The notes under the pieces are model-generated. The model saw only the letters and a program-made list of their open reading frames with translations. It did not search any database and had not been told where the DNA came from. A DNA stretch of 64,000 nucleotides from Phycisphaeraceae bacterium (lineage in GTDB: Bacteria > Planctomycetota > Phycisphaerae > Phycisphaerales > Zrk34): contig JANQHD010000009.1 in the NCBI GenBank assembly GCA_028282805.1, forward strand, positions 124,001 to 188,000, in the 5' to 3' direction. A program made the translations under genes and the position numbers. Below, piece by piece: positions 5,588-40,503 of the stretch (position 1 is its first letter; each line of letters opens with the position of its first letter).

Positions 5588-5794
5588 ATGACTGCCTCCC
5601 AAGGATGCCCGCCCGTGTTGGCCTGGGCCTGCGGGCCCGCCGGGCGGTTGTGGGTTGGTTTCTTTCCTAAGTTTCGCCGCGTGCGGTGCTTTCGTCAAGC
5701 CGGCCGACGCCGTTTCCCCATGAAAAACGGCCCGCGTCATCGACACGGGCCGCAAAAGTCATCCGTCCCTGCTCCGGGGTTCTGCTCCCCTGTG

Positions 5795-6583
5795 CTATTC
5801 CTCGGCCCTTTCGATCTGCCAGTACTCGATCTCCAGCGGCGTGGCGCGGCCGAAGATCGTCACGATCACGCGGACCTTGCCCTGTTCGGGCAGCAGCGTG
5901 TCGATCGTGCCTTCCATGTTCTCGAACGGGCCTTCCTTGATCTTGACCACGTCGCCGGGCTTGAACTCCATGTGGATCTCGGGCTCTTCCTCGGGGCGAC
6001 GCGAGGCGATGACCATCTTCTCGACCTCGTTGGTCTGCATCGGGGCCGGCCGGCCCGCGGTGCCGATGAAGTCGCCCACGCCCGTGGTCTCCTTGATCAG
6101 GAAGAACACGTCCTGGGGGATGCGGCCGTCGGCCTCGAGGGCCATCTCCACGAACACGTAGCCCGGGTACAGCTTGCGCTCGGTGATCTTCTGCTTGCCC
6201 GCCTTCATGGAGCGGATCTTCTCGGTCGGCACGAGGATGCGGTTGACGATGTGCGTCATGCCCTCGATCTTGATCTTCCGCAGGAGCGTCTCCTTGACCG
6301 AGTCCTCCTTGTTGGAGGCGACGCGGAGCACGAACCAGTCCATGCCCGGCGTGACCAGCGGCTCGCCCTCGCCGATGCCGTCGGAGTGCTCGCCGATCTT
6401 TTCTTCGATCTCGTCCTGCAGGTGCTCTTCGAGGTCGGTGTCCTTCTGCGGCGTCGCGGGCTCGGCCACCTCTTTCTGAGGCGCGACGGGTTCGGCCGGC
6501 GGCTCTTCCGCCACGGGCTCGGCCGGGACCTCGGTCGGTTCGACCGGTTCGTTGTCTTCGAGGTTGGTGGGCGTGTCGGTCAT
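5795..6583 (-). CDS. nusG: transcription termination/antitermination protein NusG with long acidic N-terminal extension
   Basis: 262 codons. NusG binds RNA polymerase and, through its KOW domain, Rho or ribosomal protein S10. The NGN domain begins at MDWFVLRVASNKED (about residue 81) and the KOW domain is seen as FKPGDVVKIKEGPFENMEGT near the end. Canonical NusG starts at the MDWF position; here about 80 residues rich in Pro, Glu and Ala precede it. The ATG overlaps the secE stop by four bases (ATGA), which fixes this start and argues that the extension is translated. Confidence 0.96.
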   Translation of the reverse strand: MTDTPTNLEDNEPVEPTEVPAEPVAEEPPAEPVAPQKEVAEPATPQKDTDLEEHLQDEIEEKIGEHSDGIGEGEPLVTPGMDWFVLRVASNKEDSVKETLLRKIKIEGMTHIVNRILVPTEKIRSMKAGKQKITERKLYPGYVFVEMALEADGRIPQDVFFLIKETTGVGDFIGTAGRPAPMQTNEVEKMVIASRRPEEEPEIHMEFKPGDVVKIKEGPFENMEGTIDTLLPEQGKVRVIVTIFGRATPLEIEYWQIERAEE

Positions 6584-7011
6584 TGCGAGTTGCTTCCGGT
6601 CTCGGCGGAGCCGATTTCGAGGACCCCGGTCTGGGTTGCGATCCAAGCGAATACGTTGTCGGCGAGGTAGATCACGCCGACGAGGATCGCCAGGCCGCAG
6701 ATCACGATCCACGTCGAGCCGATCACCTCCCGGCGGCTGGGCCAGTTGACCTTCTTCATCTCGCCCTCGGTGGCGATGAGGAAGTCGACGCTCTTGGGCC
6801 GCGAGCCGACGAAGCGGTAGATGAAGTAACCGAACATGGCGATCAGCGACAGCGCCACGCCGCCCTGGATGTAGATGCGGTAGTCGGTCCGGATGACTTC
6901 GAGTTCTTGCCACAGCCAGATGGCGCCGATCACCACGATCAGACCAAAACCCAGGCCGCTCATCACGCGCGTCCAATACCCCTGGCCGGTCTTGTAAACC
7001 TTCAAGCTCAT
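6580..7011 (-). CDS. secE: preprotein translocase subunit SecE
   Basis: 143 codons. SecE is the essential clamp subunit of the SecYEG channel. The conserved cytoplasmic helix and last membrane helix are recognisable as GEMKKVNWPSRREVIGSTWI followed by VICGLAILVGVIYLADNV. Two further membrane segments (GFGLIVVIGAIWLW and GGVALSLIAMFGYFIYRF) make it a three-helix form. The start MSLKVYKTGQ at 7011 is preferred because the frame upstream runs into tRNA-Trp. Its stop overlaps the nusG start (ATGA). Confidence 0.95.
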   Translation of the reverse strand: MSLKVYKTGQGYWTRVMSGLGFGLIVVIGAIWLWQELEVIRTDYRIYIQGGVALSLIAMFGYFIYRFVGSRPKSVDFLIATEGEMKKVNWPSRREVIGSTWIVICGLAILVGVIYLADNVFAWIATQTGVLEIGSAETGSNSQ

Positions 7012-31637: not shown

Positions 31638-32135
31638 ATGAACCGGCGGTTCCATTACGAGGCGGCGTTCGAGCACTACCTGCGGGCCAAGCAGATCCCG
31701 TACGTGGCGGTCGATGAGGCGCGAAAATCACTGCGGGGCGAGGTCAAGCTCAAAAACTTCGACTTCGTCGTGTATGGGCAGACCGGGCCGAACCTGCTGG
31801 TCGACGTCAAGGGCCGCAAGCACACCGGCCGGTCGCACAAGGCGCTGGACAACTGGGTCACCGAAGACGACGTGCAGGATTTGCGGCAGTGGCAGGAGGT
31901 GTTCGGAGAGGGTTTTCGCGCGGCGTTCGTGTTCCTCTACTGGTGCGAGGCCCAGCCGCCGGACGCGCTGTTTTTGGAGACGTTTACCCACCGCGACCGC
32001 TGGTACGCCGTGCTCGCGGCCACGCTAGACGACTACCGGGCCCACATGAAACCCCGCAGCGAGCGGTGGCGGACCGTGCACATCCCCGCCGAGGCATACG
32101 GGCGGATCAGCCGGCCGCTGATGCAGCTGCTCTAA
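31638..32135 (+). CDS. PD-(D/E)XK nuclease-like protein of unknown role
   Basis: 165 codons, with a GAGGGG box upstream. The pattern LKNFDFVVYGQTGPNLLVDVKG has the spacing of a PD-(D/E)XK core (Asp, then D-V-K). The N-terminus MNRRFHYEAAFEHYLR supplies a conserved-looking Glu. No DNA-binding or partner domain is visible, and no modification methylase is adjacent. A TACAAT box (31598-31603) lies 35 bases before the start. Confidence 0.6.
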   Translation: MNRRFHYEAAFEHYLRAKQIPYVAVDEARKSLRGEVKLKNFDFVVYGQTGPNLLVDVKGRKHTGRSHKALDNWVTEDDVQDLRQWQEVFGEGFRAAFVFLYWCEAQPPDALFLETFTHRDRWYAVLAATLDDYRAHMKPRSERWRTVHIPAEAYGRISRPLMQLL

Positions 32136-32505: not shown

Positions 32506-32799
32506 ATGAACAGGAAAACCCTCGGCGCCCTGGCGGCGCTCAACGCGGTGTTGGTGCTGGCGATCACCGCGGTGACCCTGGTCCCCAGCACCGCGCAAGG
32601 CCAGTTCAGCGGCGGCGGCGGCGACTACACCATGATCGCCGCGCAACGCAGCGGACAGTCGTCCCACGTCGTGCACATCTTCGACACCAAGCGCGGCGTG
32701 ACGATCTCCGTCGAGCCCAGCCAGAAGGGTCGCGGCGATCTGAACGTCATCGCCTTCCGCGACCTCAGCGGCGACTTCAAACCCGGCGGCGGCCGCTAA
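32506..32799 (+). CDS. small exported protein, member of a two-gene family
   Basis: 97 codons, AAGGAG upstream. Signal peptide or anchor (LAALNAVLVLAITAVTLV) followed by a segment with YTMIAAQRSGQSSHVVHIFD and DTKRGVTISVE. The next gene has the same architecture and similar sequence (Y.LDTR...), so the two look paralogous. Function unknown. Confidence 0.65.
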   Translation: MNRKTLGALAALNAVLVLAITAVTLVPSTAQGQFSGGGGDYTMIAAQRSGQSSHVVHIFDTKRGVTISVEPSQKGRGDLNVIAFRDLSGDFKPGGGR

Positions 32800-32822
32800 G
32801 GCGACGCGAAAGGAGCTAAACC

Positions 32823-33167
32823 ATGAAACTCACCCAGATCGCATGCTGCCTGCTGCTCGCCTCGGCTTTCGTGCTCGGCGCGGTCCTCATCGACCGGGTC
32901 GACGACCGCGTCGCCCTCGAGCCGCAAGCCCAGGCCGAGATGGTCATCAGCCAGGGCCTGTTCACCGTCATGAGCACCGGCGGCAAGAGCAACGAAGAGT
33001 ACGTCTACCTGCTCGACACCCGTTCGAGCATGCTCGTGTGCTACGAGTTCTCGGCCAGCAAGAAACGCCTGGAGGTCGTCGGTACGCTGGACGTGGGGCG
33101 CACGATCCAGATGGCGCTGAACAAAACCGATTCGGACAACCCCGGCACGCGCCGCCGTGACCGCTGA
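32823..33167 (+). CDS. small exported protein, paralogue of the preceding gene
   Basis: 114 codons, AAAGGAG upstream, 23 bases after the previous stop. Signal peptide/anchor (IACCLLLASAFVLGAVLI), then LFTVMSTGGKSNEEYVYLLD, TRSSMLVCYEFSASKKRL, VVGTLDVGRTIQ. The layout resembles one blade of a repeat protein: two short strands joined by an LDTR turn. bioB follows 86 bases downstream. Confidence 0.65.
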   Translation: MKLTQIACCLLLASAFVLGAVLIDRVDDRVALEPQAQAEMVISQGLFTVMSTGGKSNEEYVYLLDTRSSMLVCYEFSASKKRLEVVGTLDVGRTIQMALNKTDSDNPGTRRRDR

Positions 33168-33253: not shown

Positions 33254-34390
33254 ATGAACCGCTACGACCACTGGGCCGCACTGGGGTTGGACGACCAGCC
33301 GATCACGCGCGACGATGCGCTGCGCATCGTGCGCGGCGACGGGGTCGACCTTATGCCGCTGCTCGACGCCGCCGGGCGCGTGCGCCGGCGCTACTTCGGC
33401 AACACCGTCTCCGTGCACGTGCTGGACAACGTGCAGAACGGCGCCTGCCCCGAAGACTGCGGCTACTGCGGCCAGTCGGCCGACTCCGACGCCCCGCTCA
33501 AGCCGTACAAGCTCAAGGGCGTCGACGACATCGTCGCCGACGCGCAGAACGCCAAGGCCAGCGGCGCTTTCCGGTTTTGCATGGCCCTGTCCGGCCGCGG
33601 CCCCGACGACCGTGACATCGACCACATGTGCGAGGCGATCGGGCGCGTCAAGGCGATGGGCCTGCGCACGTGCCTCAGCGCGGGCCTGCTCGACGAAGCC
33701 AAGGCGCAGCGGTTGAAGGCCGCCGGGCTCGACCGGCTCAACCACAACCTCAACACCTCGCGCGACCACTACCCGGCGATCTGCTCGACGCACACTTACG
33801 ACGACCGCATGGCCACGCTCGCCGCGGCGCGCGGCGCGGGCCTGGGTGTGTGCAGCGGCATGATCGTGGGCATGGGCGAAACGCACCGCGACGTGGTCGA
33901 CGTCGCTCTTGCGCTGCGCGATTTCAGGGCCGAGTCGATCCCCGTCAACTTCTTGCTGCCGATCGCCGGCAACCGCGTCAACGACCCGGTGTGCGAGGGC
34001 CGGCCGCTCGACCCGCAACTCGTGCTGCGCGTGCTGTCGATGGTGCGGCTGGTCAACCCGACCGCCGAGGTGCGTGTGGCCGCGGGGCGCGAGCAGCACC
34101 TGCGTTCGATGCAGGCGATGGCGCTTTGGCCGGCGAACTCGCTGTTCGTGTCGGGCTACCTGCTGACCGAGGGCGACGACGCCGCGGCGACGCTGCGCAT
34201 GATACTCGACGCCGGCTTTGTGCCCCGGCTCGACGAGGGCGATTGGCCCGACGAACTCAAGCGGTTGGCCGTGAGCGGCGCCGAGCCGGCGAGCGGCGGG
34301 GGCGAACCGCAACTCAAACCCACCGTCACCGGGCGATCGGGCGCGCCGTTCGTGCCGGTGACCGTTTCCGCCGAGCAAGCCGCCGACTGA
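33254..34390 (+). CDS. bioB: biotin synthase
   Basis: 378 codons. BioB is a radical SAM enzyme that inserts sulfur into dethiobiotin. The cluster-binding cysteines are in ACPEDCGYCGQSA (CxxxCxxC, about residues 59-66). NLNTSRDHY, GMIVGMGET and the later PTAEVRVAAGRE segment are typical. The C-terminus is about 30 residues longer than E. coli BioB. Its stop overlaps the start of the ketosynthase-like gene by one base, so the two are probably translated together. Confidence 0.95.
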   Translation: MNRYDHWAALGLDDQPITRDDALRIVRGDGVDLMPLLDAAGRVRRRYFGNTVSVHVLDNVQNGACPEDCGYCGQSADSDAPLKPYKLKGVDDIVADAQNAKASGAFRFCMALSGRGPDDRDIDHMCEAIGRVKAMGLRTCLSAGLLDEAKAQRLKAAGLDRLNHNLNTSRDHYPAICSTHTYDDRMATLAAARGAGLGVCSGMIVGMGETHRDVVDVALALRDFRAESIPVNFLLPIAGNRVNDPVCEGRPLDPQLVLRVLSMVRLVNPTAEVRVAAGREQHLRSMQAMALWPANSLFVSGYLLTEGDDAAATLRMILDAGFVPRLDEGDWPDELKRLAVSGAEPASGGGEPQLKPTVTGRSGAPFVPVTVSAEQAAD

Positions 34391-35472
34391 TGCCCGCGCC
34401 GATCACCATCGCGGGCGTCGGCCTGGTCACACCGCTCGGCCACTCGGCGTGGTCGACGTGGCGGGCGCTGCTCGACGGCAAGTGCATCACCGACCGCTGC
34501 GCCGCGCTGCCGGCCAACGTGGCGCCGGTCGATTTGGTGCGCAGCGTGGGCTGCGTGTCGGTCTCGCAACACGTCGGCGCAGACCCGGCGGTCGAGCTCG
34601 CCGAACGCGCCGCGCGGCAGGCCATCGACGACGCCCCAATCAACACCGACGCCCTGCCCGTCGTCATCGGCGTCAGCAAAGGCGCGGTCGCCGATACCAA
34701 GCGTTATGCGCGGGGCCCGGTTTCGTTGCTAGCACAGGGCTTGCACGAGCGCCTGCCGCTCGGCGAGACGCGCCAGGTCGTCGCGGCGTGCGCGTCGTCG
34801 CTGTTGGCCGTGCACCTGGCGCGGCGTTGGATGCAAACCGATGGCCCGCCCGCCGTGCTGGTCGTGACCGCCGAGGCGGCGCTGCGGCCGATGTTCATTC
34901 ACAGCTACCAACGCCTGGGCGTGCTGCCGCCGCTCAGCGCCGACGGCTACCGCGGCCGCCCGCTCGACGCCAGCCGATGCGGTTTCGTGCTCACCGAGGT
35001 CGGCGCGGCGGTGCTGCTGGTGCGCGACGGGCCCGGCCCCGTGCTCGCCGATACCGCCGCGGCCTGCGAGGCGCACGACGTGGTCCGCTCGTCGCCGGCG
35101 CGCGGCGCGCTGCGCCACGTGGCCGGCCGGCTGTTGCGTGAGCCGATCGACCTGCTGCACCCCCACGCCACGGGCACGGTTGAAAACGACGAAGCCGAGC
35201 TCGCCGCCTACGCCTCAAGCCTTCCCCCCGACACCTACGCCGCCAAGGGCGCGCTCGGGCACGGCCTCGGCAGCGCGGGGCTGACCTCGCTCGTGCTCGC
35301 GGTCATGGCCGACCGCACGCAGCGCCGGCCGCCCATGCCGTGGCTCGCCGAGCCGCTGCGGTGCGGCTGGCCGTTGTCGTTCGATGCGCCCAGGCGCGCG
35401 ATCGCGCGGCAGGCGGTGTTCGCCGCGGGGTTCGGCGGGCACGTCGCGGGCGCGGTGATACAGAAGCGATAA
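34390..35472 (+). CDS. beta-ketoacyl-ACP synthase-like protein coupled to bioB
   Basis: 360 codons. The thiolase fold is recognisable: N-terminal IAGVGLVTPLGHSAWSTW, active-site cysteine in VVAACASSLLAVHLA, the first histidine in LLHPHATGTVENDEAE and the second in AKGALGHGLGSAG. All three catalytic residues are present, so it is probably active. It is shorter than FabF (about 410). Coupling to bioB suggests a role in making the pimeloyl chain or a related acyl-ACP; this is inference. It converges with the oxidoreductase gene. Confidence 0.82.
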   Translation: MPAPITIAGVGLVTPLGHSAWSTWRALLDGKCITDRCAALPANVAPVDLVRSVGCVSVSQHVGADPAVELAERAARQAIDDAPINTDALPVVIGVSKGAVADTKRYARGPVSLLAQGLHERLPLGETRQVVAACASSLLAVHLARRWMQTDGPPAVLVVTAEAALRPMFIHSYQRLGVLPPLSADGYRGRPLDASRCGFVLTEVGAAVLLVRDGPGPVLADTAAACEAHDVVRSSPARGALRHVAGRLLREPIDLLHPHATGTVENDEAELAAYASSLPPDTYAAKGALGHGLGSAGLTSLVLAVMADRTQRRPPMPWLAEPLRCGWPLSFDAPRRAIARQAVFAAGFGGHVAGAVIQKR

Positions 35473-35496: not shown

Positions 35497-38400
35497 TCAG
35501 GTGCTTTGCGTGTGAATGATCTGGTTCGACAGCGAGACGGTGATCTTCGGGTCGTCGGTCGGGTCGGTGTCGTGGGCCTCGGCGAGCAGGGCCTCGGCGG
35601 CGGCGCGGGCGGCCTCCATCTTCGGGTAGCGCACCTCGCGGTAGCCGGTCACACCGTCGAGCGTGCGGCAGATCTTTACCCACTTGGCGTACTCGGCGTC
35701 GGTGCGGCAGTCGATGCGGTCGACCACCGACTCGAACCAGTCGCGGAACGCGCGCTCGCGTTTGTGCCAGCCCGGCAGCACGCCCCGCAACCACCCGCAG
35801 CGCGCCATCAGGCGCATCTGCCAGTCGCGGCCCTTCCAGTTGAACGCGATGCTGCGCCCGAAGACCACGAACTCCGGCCGGTTGTGGTGCAGGTACGTGA
35901 TCTTGTCGCCGCGCGCGGGGTTGACCTTGTAGCGGCGCTGGTCACGCTTGTACTTCTCGGGGCTGGTCAGCATCGCCGCGACGTACGGCTCGTCCTTGAT
36001 GAGCATCGCCTTGGCCAGGTTCCACACCACCGCGCGGGTCAGCGCGTAGTTGTGCTTGTCGTCGTCGCGTTTGAAGGTGGCGACCACGCGGTCGCAGTAC
36101 TTCTTGGCGTAGCCGATGTCGCCCCAGATGATGCAGTCGTAGGCCCGGATGACCACGTCGCGCATGAGCGCGTCGTCGACGCTCCGGCCGCGCGTGGCGC
36201 GGAACATCTGACGCATCAGCGTGCGGTACTGCTTGGTCAGGCGCCGGCCCCGCTTGCCGCGGTACTGCAACCGCAGCGTGTTGGTCTTCCGGCGGAACGC
36301 CTGCCGCGCCGACTCAAAGTCCTTGCGGCTCTCGACGATGAACAACTCCGGCTTGACCACGATCATGCGGCCGATGCTGAAGGCGCGCATGTTACGGTCG
36401 TACTCCTTGCGGATCAGCCGCTTCATCGCCACCTCGACCGCCTCTTGCGTCAGCGGGAAGTAGCCGAGCTGGTAGGCCATGCCGAGCATCATGATGTTCG
36501 CGTAGAGCTTGTTGTCGAGCACGCGCTCGCACAGGTCGCCGACGTTGAACCCGAAGTAGCGGTCGGGGTGCGTGTAGGTCCGCAGGCACGCCTCGAGGTC
36601 CATCGGGTCGAAGTCGTCCTGGCCCATCAAGGTCAGTATGGTCGGCGTCTTGGCGGTGTTGACCACGGTGGCGGTGCGGTCACAGCCGGCCACGCGGAAC
36701 GGGTGCTTGGGGTCGATGGCGCGGGCGGCTTCGAGCAGGTCCACGCCCAAAATCAAATCCGCCTTGCCGCAGGGGATGACCGGCGTGGTCTTGCCGGTCT
36801 TGTCGGTCCGGCTGTAAACGATCTGGCTGCACACGCCGCCGTTGCGGATCGCCAGGCCCTTCTTGTCGAGGTACTGGACGTGATAGCCCATCTCCTCGCC
36901 CGCGGCGACCAAAATGCTCGTCGCCAGACCGATGCCCATGCCGCCCACGCCCGCCAGGTAGCAGCGCCACTCGTCGGCGTCGGCGTGCACCGGCTTGGCC
37001 GGCGCGGGGATGTCGGTCAGGTCGACGTACTCGTCGCCGCTGCGGGCCGGCTGCTTGCGGGTGATGGTCACCTCTTCGAACGACGGGCACGCGTGGATCC
37101 GCGCGCACGCCCCGTCGTTGACGCACCAGCTCATGTCCGTCTGCATCTTCGGGCCGTAGTCCGTCGACACGATCTTCAGCCCCGGGCAGCCGGTCTGGTT
37201 CGTGCACTCCAGGCAGAACTCGCAGACCTCCTCGGCGACGTTCATCATCGTCTGCTTGGGCAGGTAACCGATCTCCTTGGCCACCGCGCTCTCTTCACGC
37301 CGGCGGCGGCGGTGGAAGGTGATGCCGCACTCCTTGTCGGCGATCACGATCTTCACGCCGTCGGCCAGCAGCGTCTGCTCGAGCATCTTGCGGTACTCGG
37401 CCCGGTCCGACGGGTCCATCCGCACGAGGCGCACGTCGTTCTTCAGCTGCTTGGGCACCATGCCCTTGACGATGCGCTCGATGTCCTGCGGCACCTGCTC
37501 CTCGCCGACCATGTTCGACTCGTTGCCGGCGTGCGGCTGGTGGCCGGTCATCGCCGTGGTCTGGTTGTCGAGGATGATGTACGTGATGTCCTGGCCCTGG
37601 GCGATCGAGTTGCTGATCGCCAGCTGGCCGGAGTGGTAGAACGTGCCGTCGCCCATGAACACCAATTGCTTGTTGACGATGAACGGGTCGGCGCCCGCGC
37701 CCGTCGCCCCGCCCAGGCCCATGCCGCTGTAGTTGTGCATCAGCGGCTTGGTCGGCTCGAACATGAGCATGGTGTAGCAGCCGGTGTCGCCGTGGCAGAC
37801 CAGGTCCACCGGCGGGCTCTTGTGCACGCGCTGCATGTAGTCGGCGTCGAGCAGGTCGTTGCGCAGTTCCAGCAGCGTGCTCGACGAATCGCGGTGCGGG
37901 CAGCCGGGGCAGAACGTCGGCGTGCGGTCGGGCAGGTGAACCTGCGCCCGCTTGGTCAGCTCGACGCGGTCCAGCTCGTCCGACAGCCGGCCGTTGGTCA
38001 TCTCGATCGGCAGCGTCGGGTGCTGCTTGATCAGCGGCACGAGGCGTTCGATCAGCAGCGAGGGGTGCAGGCCGCGCGTGGCGGGGATGCCCGGCAGGTC
38101 ACGCGGGAACGTCTTGCCCCATACCTCGCAGTTGAGCAGCGCTTTCTGGCGCAGGGGTGTGACGATCTGCTGCACCTGGCGCTCGACGAAGCTGCGGCGT
38201 TCCTCGATCACCACGACCTGCCCGCAGTGCTCGGCGAAGTCGGTAACGATCTGTTCGTCGAGCGGGTAGCTGAGGCCGATCTTGAGGATCGGGAACTGGT
38301 CGGACAGGCCGATCTCCGCCAGCGCGTGCACGAGGTACGAATAGGCGTTGCCGGAGGCGATGAAGCCCATGGGCACGCGTTCGCCGCGCTGCGGCTTGTT

Positions 38401-39165
38401 GACGATGCGGTTGATGCCCAGCCGGCGTGCCTCGGCCATGACCGCGGCGTGACGCGCGGCCATGCCCAGCTCACGCTGCCAGCTGCGCGGCGGCAGCAGC
38501 ACGAACTGGTCGAGGTTCGGCTCGATGTCTTTCTCGTAGCTCAGCAGCGCCTGCTGGTGGGCGTTGAGCGAGGGGTACTGGTTGGGCTTGACGTCGACCG
38601 TGCCGCCGCCGTCGGCCAGCGCGGTGGTCATCATGTAGCCCATGTAGATCTGTCCGGCCTTGCCGAGCTTGAACGACAGGTCGATCCAGTCCTTGACCTC
38701 TTGGGGGCCGGCGGGTTCGAGCATGGGCATGCGCAGGTGCTCGGCGATGAACCGGCTGTCGACGGGGGCCTGGGTGGAGTCGGACCACGGGTCGTCGCCG
38801 CACACGATCAGCGCCCCGCCGCCGCCCTTGGTGCCCGCGAGCACGCCGAGGGCCAGCGCGTCGGACGCGACGTGCACGCCGACCGACTTCATCGCGGTGA
38901 TGCAGCGGCACTCGGTCATCTGGGCGCCGTTGACCATGGCCACCGACAGCGCCTCGTTGTTGGCCACGCGCGCCACGATGCCGCGCTCGCGCAGCATGCC
39001 CTGGGCGGCTTCGAACGCGTCGAAGAAGCCGGCGATGGGCGAGCCGGGGTAACCGGTCAGCAGGTGGACGCCGCCCTCGGCCTCAAGGGCGCCCTTGAGC
39101 AGCAGCTCGCTGCCGGTGTATATCTCCCGCCCCGTGGCTTGGACAAAGCGCGGGTTTGTTTTCAT
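35497..39165 (-). CDS. single-chain indolepyruvate/2-oxoacid:ferredoxin oxidoreductase
   Basis: 1222 codons. Oxidatively decarboxylates an aryl 2-oxoacid to acyl-CoA using thiamine diphosphate and ferredoxin. Order: pyrimidine-binding domain I (LLTGYPGSPIAGF, about 36-48), C-terminal ThDP core (CPGCPHRDSS; HGDTGCYTM; FMGDGTFYHSG...LDNQTTAMTG), iron-sulfur segment with CEFCLECTNQTGCPG and CVNDGACARIHACPS (about 650-715), gamma-type domain (GVGGMGIGLATSIL, about 765), and a C-terminal region of about 250 residues like DUF6537. It is thus an IorA-IorB fusion. A 38-codon ORF overlaps its start by four bases. Confidence 0.93.
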   Translation of the reverse strand: MKTNPRFVQATGREIYTGSELLLKGALEAEGGVHLLTGYPGSPIAGFFDAFEAAQGMLRERGIVARVANNEALSVAMVNGAQMTECRCITAMKSVGVHVASDALALGVLAGTKGGGGALIVCGDDPWSDSTQAPVDSRFIAEHLRMPMLEPAGPQEVKDWIDLSFKLGKAGQIYMGYMMTTALADGGGTVDVKPNQYPSLNAHQQALLSYEKDIEPNLDQFVLLPPRSWQRELGMAARHAAVMAEARRLGINRIVNKPQRGERVPMGFIASGNAYSYLVHALAEIGLSDQFPILKIGLSYPLDEQIVTDFAEHCGQVVVIEERRSFVERQVQQIVTPLRQKALLNCEVWGKTFPRDLPGIPATRGLHPSLLIERLVPLIKQHPTLPIEMTNGRLSDELDRVELTKRAQVHLPDRTPTFCPGCPHRDSSSTLLELRNDLLDADYMQRVHKSPPVDLVCHGDTGCYTMLMFEPTKPLMHNYSGMGLGGATGAGADPFIVNKQLVFMGDGTFYHSGQLAISNSIAQGQDITYIILDNQTTAMTGHQPHAGNESNMVGEEQVPQDIERIVKGMVPKQLKNDVRLVRMDPSDRAEYRKMLEQTLLADGVKIVIADKECGITFHRRRRREESAVAKEIGYLPKQTMMNVAEEVCEFCLECTNQTGCPGLKIVSTDYGPKMQTDMSWCVNDGACARIHACPSFEEVTITRKQPARSGDEYVDLTDIPAPAKPVHADADEWRCYLAGVGGMGIGLATSILVAAGEEMGYHVQYLDKKGLAIRNGGVCSQIVYSRTDKTGKTTPVIPCGKADLILGVDLLEAARAIDPKHPFRVAGCDRTATVVNTAKTPTILTLMGQDDFDPMDLEACLRTYTHPDRYFGFNVGDLCERVLDNKLYANIMMLGMAYQLGYFPLTQEAVEVAMKRLIRKEYDRNMRAFSIGRMIVVKPELFIVESRKDFESARQAFRRKTNTLRLQYRGKRGRRLTKQYRTLMRQMFRATRGRSVDDALMRDVVIRAYDCIIWGDIGYAKKYCDRVVATFKRDDDKHNYALTRAVVWNLAKAMLIKDEPYVAAMLTSPEKYKRDQRRYKVNPARGDKITYLHHNRPEFVVFGRSIAFNWKGRDWQMRLMARCGWLRGVLPGWHKRERAFRDWFESVVDRIDCRTDAEYAKWVKICRTLDGVTGYREVRYPKMEAARAAAEALLAEAHDTDPTDDPKITVSLSNQIIHTQST

Positions 39166-39537: not shown

Positions 39538-40503
39538 ATGCAAACGCAAGCCAATCCCACACCAGCAGATCGGGCGCCGGCCGTGGCGGCCGACGAGACC
39601 TTCGACGGCACTTGGCCGTTCCACGCTCACTACACCCACGCCCCCGGGTTCAAGATGCATTACGCCGACGAAGGCGAGGGCCCCGAGACGCTCCTGCTGC
39701 TCCACGGCGAACCCACGTGGGGCTACCTGTTCCGGCAGCAGATCCCCGCGTGGGCAAAACACACGCGCGTGATCGCACCCGACCACATGGGCTTCGGCAA
39801 GAGCGCCACGCCACCGGACCGCACGTATTGGCTTCAGGATCACATCGACAACCTCGAAGCGCTCGCAGCGGACCTGGACCTGCAGCAGATCACCCTCGTC
39901 ATGCACGACTTCGGCGGGCCGGTCGGCATGGGCCTGGCGGCCCGTCAGCCCGAGCGCATCAAGCGGATCGTGTCGGTCAACGGCCCGACCCCGTTCGGCC
40001 AACCGGACCTGGTCGAACGCGTGACGGCGAACGTTGGCGTCTCGCCGTGGTTCCAGTGGGTCATGCGGGCCGAAGCGGAAGGCACCCTTGAGCAGGTCCT
40101 GGGGCACCTCGGTTACCACATCCTCTCCACGTTGAAACTGAACGGCTTCGTGCGCAACGAAATCGTGACCGACACCTGGATCAAAGCATACGGCGCACCG
40201 TTCCCGACACCCGCACAGGCAGCGGGCGGCATCGGCTGGGCCAAGGGCTTCGCCACCGGAGCGCACCGGTTCGAAAACCCGACCCCGCAGGTCAAAGCAG
40301 CGATCCAAGCCAAACCCGCACTCGCGATCTGGGGCCAACAGGACCGCACCCTGCACGCCGAGCACTTCCTACCGCTGTTCAGCCAACTGTTCCCCGACGC
40401 CCCGGTGCATCATCTGCGGGGCGCGGGCCATTACAGCCCCGAAGACGCGCCAGACGAGATCACGCGGCTCGTGCTCGATTTTCTGGTCGCAAACCCGGTG
40501 TGA
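39538..40503 (+). CDS. alpha/beta hydrolase, haloalkane dehalogenase-like
   Basis: 321 codons. The haloalkane dehalogenase pattern is visible: LLLHGEPTWGYLFRQQIP (oxyanion/halide side), nucleophile Asp in LVMHDFGGPVGMG (about residue 123), and catalytic histidine in GAGHYSPEDAPDEI near the C-terminus. The residue after the nucleophile is Phe instead of the halide-binding Trp found in most characterised enzymes, so dehalogenation is uncertain; other hydrolysis is possible. The stretch 39279-39537 upstream is non-coding and holds GATAAT (39473-39478) as a possible -10 box. Confidence 0.82.
   Translation: MQTQANPTPADRAPAVAADETFDGTWPFHAHYTHAPGFKMHYADEGEGPETLLLLHGEPTWGYLFRQQIPAWAKHTRVIAPDHMGFGKSATPPDRTYWLQDHIDNLEALAADLDLQQITLVMHDFGGPVGMGLAARQPERIKRIVSVNGPTPFGQPDLVERVTANVGVSPWFQWVMRAEAEGTLEQVLGHLGYHILSTLKLNGFVRNEIVTDTWIKAYGAPFPTPAQAAGGIGWAKGFATGAHRFENPTPQVKAAIQAKPALAIWGQQDRTLHAEHFLPLFSQLFPDAPVHHLRGAGHYSPEDAPDEITRLVLDFLVANPV

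Follow-up and report, generated by a model that had tools for sequence, protein, structure and literature searches.

A KAS I/II-type ketosynthase coupled to bioB in a Phycisphaeraceae bacterium, a possible contributor to pimeloyl synthesis

The pimeloyl step of biotin synthesis is known for the diversity of its enzymatic solutions. One of these is BioZ, a KAS III-like enzyme with a Cys-His-Asn triad that is found in the Alphaproteobacteria and a few other bacteria. BioZ is described as joining glutaryl-CoA or glutaryl-ACP to malonyl-ACP (PMC7645780, PMC8024396), and neutralisation of the carboxylate of the glutaryl group has been proposed for its residues S84, R147 and S287 (PMC8024396). Ile108 of FabF is thought to help steer the acyl chain (PMC4606726), and BioE is presented as a recently described diiron-oxygenase route (PMC12915131). 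Searches of the literature revealed no paper that brings together the Phycisphaerae, biotin and pimeloyl synthesis; judged mostly by titles and abstract openings, the papers listed also revealed no enzyme of the KAS I/II type that is reserved for making pimelate. Like BioZ, the ketosynthase described here (hereafter KAS) is linked to a biotin gene in a genome with no recognised BioC. Unlike BioZ, a KAS III enzyme with a Cys-His-Asn triad and demonstrated activity, it is a KAS I/II enzyme with a Cys-His-His triad and is known here from its sequence.

The window analysed is a stretch of 64,000 nucleotides (G000:C45:124001-188000) from a 3.9 Mb genome that is 99.8% complete. It contains bioB (33254..34390, forward strand), which encodes a biotin synthase of 378 amino acid residues with Radical_SAM and BATS domains, scoring 352.6 bits against TIGR00433 (cut-off 225). 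The gene that follows on the same strand (34390..35472) encodes the 360-residue KAS, a member of a Planctomycetota group with a Ser-Lys motif, assigned from its PF00109 and PF02801 matches, the phylogenetic tree and a structural model with the FabF fold. Both genes are intact. A sequence-only reading of the window had noted that the end of bioB overlaps the start of KAS, and the coordinates agree exactly: the bioB stop codon TGA occupies 34388-34390 and the KAS start codon ATG 34390-34392, with one base common to both in the junction TGATG.

Upstream of bioB, also on the forward strand, are a small protein that we label HYExAFE-type (31638..32135) and two small, probably exported proteins (32506..32799, with a start chosen by us, and 32823..33167). 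A Pfam scan of the HYExAFE-type protein returned only a match to SfsA, below threshold; counterparts at the bioB locus were recognised by eye in L116, L122, L192, L193 and L195. Those of the small exported proteins that were scanned had no Pfam match. Counterparts, also recognised by eye, lie upstream of bioB or KAS in L116, L150, L117 and family f1; the pair (32506-33167) precedes bioB in the window, L116, L150 and several of L185-L197, and precedes KAS in L117. Downstream of KAS, on the reverse strand, is a 2-oxoacid:ferredoxin oxidoreductase-type fusion (35497..39165; POR, TPP_enzyme_C and DUF6537). In many f6 relatives this fusion is a neighbour of KAS, and in some of the f1 relatives a neighbour of bioB. 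The gene maps, here and below, are based on rough picking of open reading frames, with many gene names assigned by eye.

KAS matches PF00109 with 55 bits and PF02801 with 39.8 bits (cut-off 20.8 for each) and, with its Cys-His-His triad, belongs to the KAS I/II type. The triad residues Cys134 (the nucleophile; codon 34789..34791), His259 (35164..35166) and His291 (35260..35262), together with Lys286 (35245..35247; all codons on the forward strand), are invariant in alignments of 27 and 18 rows that include the window protein, which confirms that the gene carries all of the catalytic residues attributed to it from the sequence alone. Ser96 and Lys97 are likewise invariant in both alignments. 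The match to the KAS III model PF08545 (17.2 bits) is under the cut-off of 24, and the third triad residue is His291. No NCBIfam cut-off was reached: the best match was PRK05952/NF004618 (89.5 bits, cut-off 455), and the FabF model TIGR03150 gave 77 bits (cut-off 493.75). The AlphaFold2 model of KAS (mean pLDDT 95.0, pTM 0.95) superposes on a solved FabF structure with a Z-score of 47.8 and an rmsd of 2.5 over 354 aligned residues.

KAS thus shares with FabF (KAS II) the fold, the triad and the equivalent of Lys286, FabF Lys335. Unlike FabF, it has Lys97 in place of Ile108, is about 50 residues shorter than the E. coli protein and lies outside the fab operon. It resembles PRK05952/NF004618, its best NCBIfam match, in that two cyanobacterial rows of the tree, which we take to be of this kind, have Arg at the position of Lys97; it differs in scoring far under the cut-off and in forming a separate branch of the tree.

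Among the rows examined, the KAS group was found only in the Planctomycetota and makes up 50 of the 71 rows of the tree, parted from the other KAS by a branch with support of 95/86. The tree is midpoint-rooted as drawn; with the FabF side as outgroup, groups I and II come together in a single group. L116 stands at the base of group I, together with L113, and L122 and L150 at the base of group II.

The Ser96-Lys97 motif (34675..34680, forward strand) places Lys97 at the position of the FabF pocket residue Ile108. In an alignment to solved Listeria FabF chains Lys97 falls on the Ile of the GSGIGG loop, and the E. coli number follows from a one-residue offset that we applied to that alignment. 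Lys97 is present in 34/34 rows of group I and 16/16 of group II, so that Lys replaces the hydrophobic pocket residue of FabF in all 50; the FabF of the same genome has Ile at this position. By analogy with S84, R147 and S287 of BioZ, Lys97 might contact the distal carboxylate of a dicarboxylic primer. Lys also occurs at this position in two thermodesulfobacterial KAS (L152 and L163), beside genes that resemble dehydratases and thioesterases (read from sequence starts), and Arg in the two cyanobacterial KAS; a basic residue at the Ile108 position is therefore no biotin-specific mark.

The window genome holds a complete set of late biotin genes, bioB, bioF, bioA and bioD, all at separate places. 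The bioF product, at 426.0 bits, narrowly misses its cut-off of 426.45; the bioD product scores 157.5 bits against TIGR00347 (cut-off 83.3) and the bioA product 503 bits (cut-off 405). The search for bioC and bioZ elsewhere in the genome that the sequence-only reading had proposed revealed no BioC above cut-off and a single KAS III match, which was rejected as BioZ because it is the FabH of a FabH-FabD-FabG-ACP-FabF operon (names read from sequence). In addition to the FabF of this operon, the genome has two further KAS I/II-like genes.

Within the order, BioW was found in none of 151 genomes by a search that was positive in Bacillus subtilis and Methanocaldococcus jannaschii. BioC was likewise found above cut-off in none of the 151, with a narrow model that exceeded its cut-off in just 1 of 14 control genomes. 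The best BioC-model match in the order reached 89.7 bits over model positions 2-139 of 244, and the matches listed each cover part of the model; given the narrowness of the model, the absence of BioC is weak evidence. The earlier reading would have been at odds with a complete classical route in the genome and a pair confined to this locus. Neither was found, with route searches that covered BioW, BioC and KAS III.

Signs of other arrangements were seen in relatives. Genome G003, a planctomycete without the Ser-Lys KAS, has bioB, bioF and a KAS III gene in order, a BioZ-like set (L167:3262-6504), and G066, which has bioB and no KAS, has a second KAS III match. In another planctomycete family, bioB and bioF are followed by an alpha/beta-hydrolase-like gene (L330:414-3148); by eye this gene resembles BioG/BioH, which hints at the classical route. 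The BioF and BioD queries match a single open frame of about 600-900 amino acids in L301, L303, L304, L306, L307, L308, L313 and L317, which suggests bioF-bioD fusions in planctomycete bio operons.

The recurrence of the gene pair was surveyed from both genes. From the KAS side, a scan of genome contigs covered the best 79 loci of 475 relatives; bioB occurred in three of them (L116, L122 and L150), each time directly preceding KAS and in both halves of the group. The two genes are separated by 2 nt in L116 and overlap by 8 nt in L122, where the KAS start codon was our choice within a longer open frame, and by 4 nt in L150. All three BioB proteins pass TIGR00433. Since bioB lies directly 5′ of a KAS of the same group in these three loci, the pairing exceeds what chance would give. 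Parts of a block consisting of hisS, the HYExAFE-type protein, the small exported proteins, bioB and KAS are common to the window, L116, L122 and L150, and the simplest reading is that bioB and KAS were together in the ancestor of groups I and II and were broken up in most descendants. In all four loci KAS is coupled to a single bio gene, bioB; in the window genome bioF, bioD and bioA lie elsewhere.

In the survey of bioB with KAS called for by the sequence-only reading, the pair recurs on these three contigs and was not seen at the further loci examined in the order. None of 40 KAS loci, taken from the 48 other KAS-positive genomes, had bioB within the stretch, several of these stretches ending at contig ends. 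No KAS match was found within the stretch at 21 other bioB loci of the order, from 15 KAS-negative and 6 KAS-positive genomes. The f1 block is otherwise alike, and in L192 and L198 the gene that bioB faces is the oxidoreductase; KAS was therefore lost there or gained in the window genome. The wider phylum contributed 74 more loci, of which 30 were short bioB loci with the best scores; a BioB match was present in 73 of the 74 and the Ser-Lys KAS in none.

Several apparent linkages were rejected. At two of these 74 loci, from the f54 genomes G414 and G437, the KAS-like gene flagged earlier proved to be a canonical fabF with a GTGIGG loop that abuts bioB (L309:2501-3751, with bioB downstream, and L336:578-1828, reverse strand); an ACP-like gene lies upstream of fabF in G437 (L336). 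In G205 the gene is a fabF in a fab operon, and bioB is absent from the stretch. The bioA of L110 is the second gene downstream of KAS, behind a gene on the opposite strand. The BioF match of L121 is about 5 kb away on the opposite strand, and that of L135, at 33% identity and also on the opposite strand, lies beside a threonine-dehydrogenase-like gene and is likely a BioF paralogue (by eye).

Other genes recur near KAS. The oxidoreductase fusion was found in at least 18 of the 40 f6, f5 and f2 loci. A fusion of about 1180 residues, with 2-oxoacid dehydrogenase E1 alpha and beta parts, a lipoyl domain and a KAS III domain (L038:972-4511, reverse strand), lies near KAS in five f6 loci (L038, L040, L046, L047 and L066; Pfam scan for L038 only), and might pass an acyl group derived from a 2-oxoacid directly to a condensing enzyme. 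On contig C27 of the window genome, L244:3942-6999 (reverse strand) carries a ketosynthase pair; one partner (5686-6999) has Glu in place of one triad residue and Met in place of another, the active Cys and the last His being the positions concerned, and in sequence it looks like a chain-length factor.

Across the 151 genomes of the order, bioB was present above cut-off in 64 and KAS in 49, these 49 having a best matching piece of at least 102 bits and the other matches listed reaching at most 52 bits. Every one of the 49 genomes with KAS also carries bioB, and a PF13500 (BioD) match is present in 48. KAS was found in none of the 87 genomes without bioB above cut-off, one of which, G025, has a bioB fragment below it. 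The 15 bioB genomes without KAS include G038, of the same genus as the window genome, an 85% complete assembly in which bioB and the oxidoreductase are immediate neighbours. Neither BioW nor BioC was found above cut-off in these 15, and therefore some unseen route can serve without KAS. In family f2, bioB occurs in 5 of 45 genomes and KAS in exactly those five, with none among the other 40; in f5 both genes occur in five of six genomes, the remaining one being without KAS; in f1, bioB occurs in eight of nine and KAS in the window genome only; and of the 91 genomes outside these families, 46 carry bioB and 38 carry KAS.

One control gene, the oxidoreductase fusion beside KAS (counted at E 1e-100 or better), was found in 35 of the 151 genomes, and 34 of these have bioB, the exception being G025. 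Co-occurrence is therefore confounded by descent and has limited weight, and it was rejected as strong proof since the control is nearly as confined to bioB genomes as KAS. Families f2 and f5 have no match to the control gene, yet KAS still tracks bioB in them, and it is mainly here that KAS is more informative than the control. In the tree, L110 and the KAS proteins of the five f2 genomes share a single clade, so that these five count as about one event.

We tentatively propose, at less than even confidence, that KAS, coupled to bioB, takes part as a dedicated ketosynthase in building the pimeloyl chain of biotin, with BioZ-like chemistry on a KAS I/II scaffold. Cys134 would accept a short acyl group with a terminal acid, most likely from glutaryl-CoA or glutaryl-ACP, the far carboxylate being held near Lys97 in the acyl pocket; condensation with malonyl-ACP would follow, and the fatty-acid reductases would finish pimeloyl-ACP for BioF. 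From the features above we infer this substrate, the part played by Lys97 and the pathway as a whole. A more specific version, in which the Planctomycetota group became a pimeloyl-making BioZ analogue independently, holds the primer carboxylate with its pocket Lys and is translationally coupled to bioB, is rather unlikely to be right in full. The strongest support for a pimeloyl role comes from the coupled pair in distant lineages, the pocket lysine and the lack of a recognised route among those searched for. Weighing most heavily against it are the 15 bioB genomes without KAS, which apart from G003 give no sign of a different route (G066 has its second KAS III match), the control gene and the f54 fabF-bioB neighbours. 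The earlier suggestion that KAS belongs to another pimeloyl route is upheld in part, by the missing BioW, the lack of BioC above cut-off and the recurring pair, and is held back by the 15 of 64 bioB genomes that do without KAS and by a control that tracks bioB nearly as closely.

The main rival is that KAS is a specialised ketosynthase for lipid or other acyl chains, its link to bioB reflecting a biotin supply co-expressed with fatty-acid synthesis, or a chain primed by 2-oxoacid-derived acyl groups. Acetyl-CoA carboxylase requires biotin, and this would tie a lipid ketosynthase to bioB. The ordinary fabF abutting bioB in two f54 genomes, with an ACP-like gene in G437, supports such a tie, and the 2-oxoacid theme is echoed by the oxidoreductase fusion in at least 18 of the 40 KAS loci and by the E1-lipoyl-KAS III fusion in five. 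The scattering of the other bio genes in the window genome, and the basic residue at the Ile108 position in KAS that have no visible biotin context, also fit. However, KAS was never found without bioB in the order, and the genome is already provided with the fab-operon FabF and two other KAS I/II-like genes. We give this explanation nearly the same confidence as the pimeloyl role, also less than even.

It is unlikely that the adjacency reflects descent only, with an old block (hisS, the HYExAFE-type protein, the small exported proteins, bioB, KAS and the oxidoreductase) persisting and KAS having no biotin role. The unrelated hisS (by eye) has indeed been kept nearby in the window, L122, f1 loci such as L192 and L195 and the f9 loci L246-L248; in L117, L125, L129 and L134 a small exported protein precedes KAS and bioB is absent; and the control gene co-occurs with bioB too. 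Against this, bioB and KAS overlap or lie 2 nt apart in all four linked loci, tighter than survival of a block requires, and KAS tracks bioB in f2 and f5, where the control had no match. Least probable, and very much so, is a classical but diverged route, through a distant BioC with an alpha/beta hydrolase acting as BioH, or through BioI or BioE, with KAS doing something else. The BioC model exceeded its cut-off in 1 of 14 control genomes, the window has an alpha/beta-hydrolase-like gene (by eye) at 39538-40503, another follows bioB-bioF in L330, and the KAS-negative bioB genomes must use something; the BioC-model matches listed for the order, however, are all partial and reach 89.7 bits at most.

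No bioB-containing genome sampled in the order showed BioW, or BioC above cut-off, which leaves a gap at the pimeloyl step that the proposed role of KAS could fill. Lys97, a single residue, makes the pimeloyl idea directly testable. If it is true, KAS would be a further enzymatic answer to the pimeloyl step, on a FabF-type scaffold.
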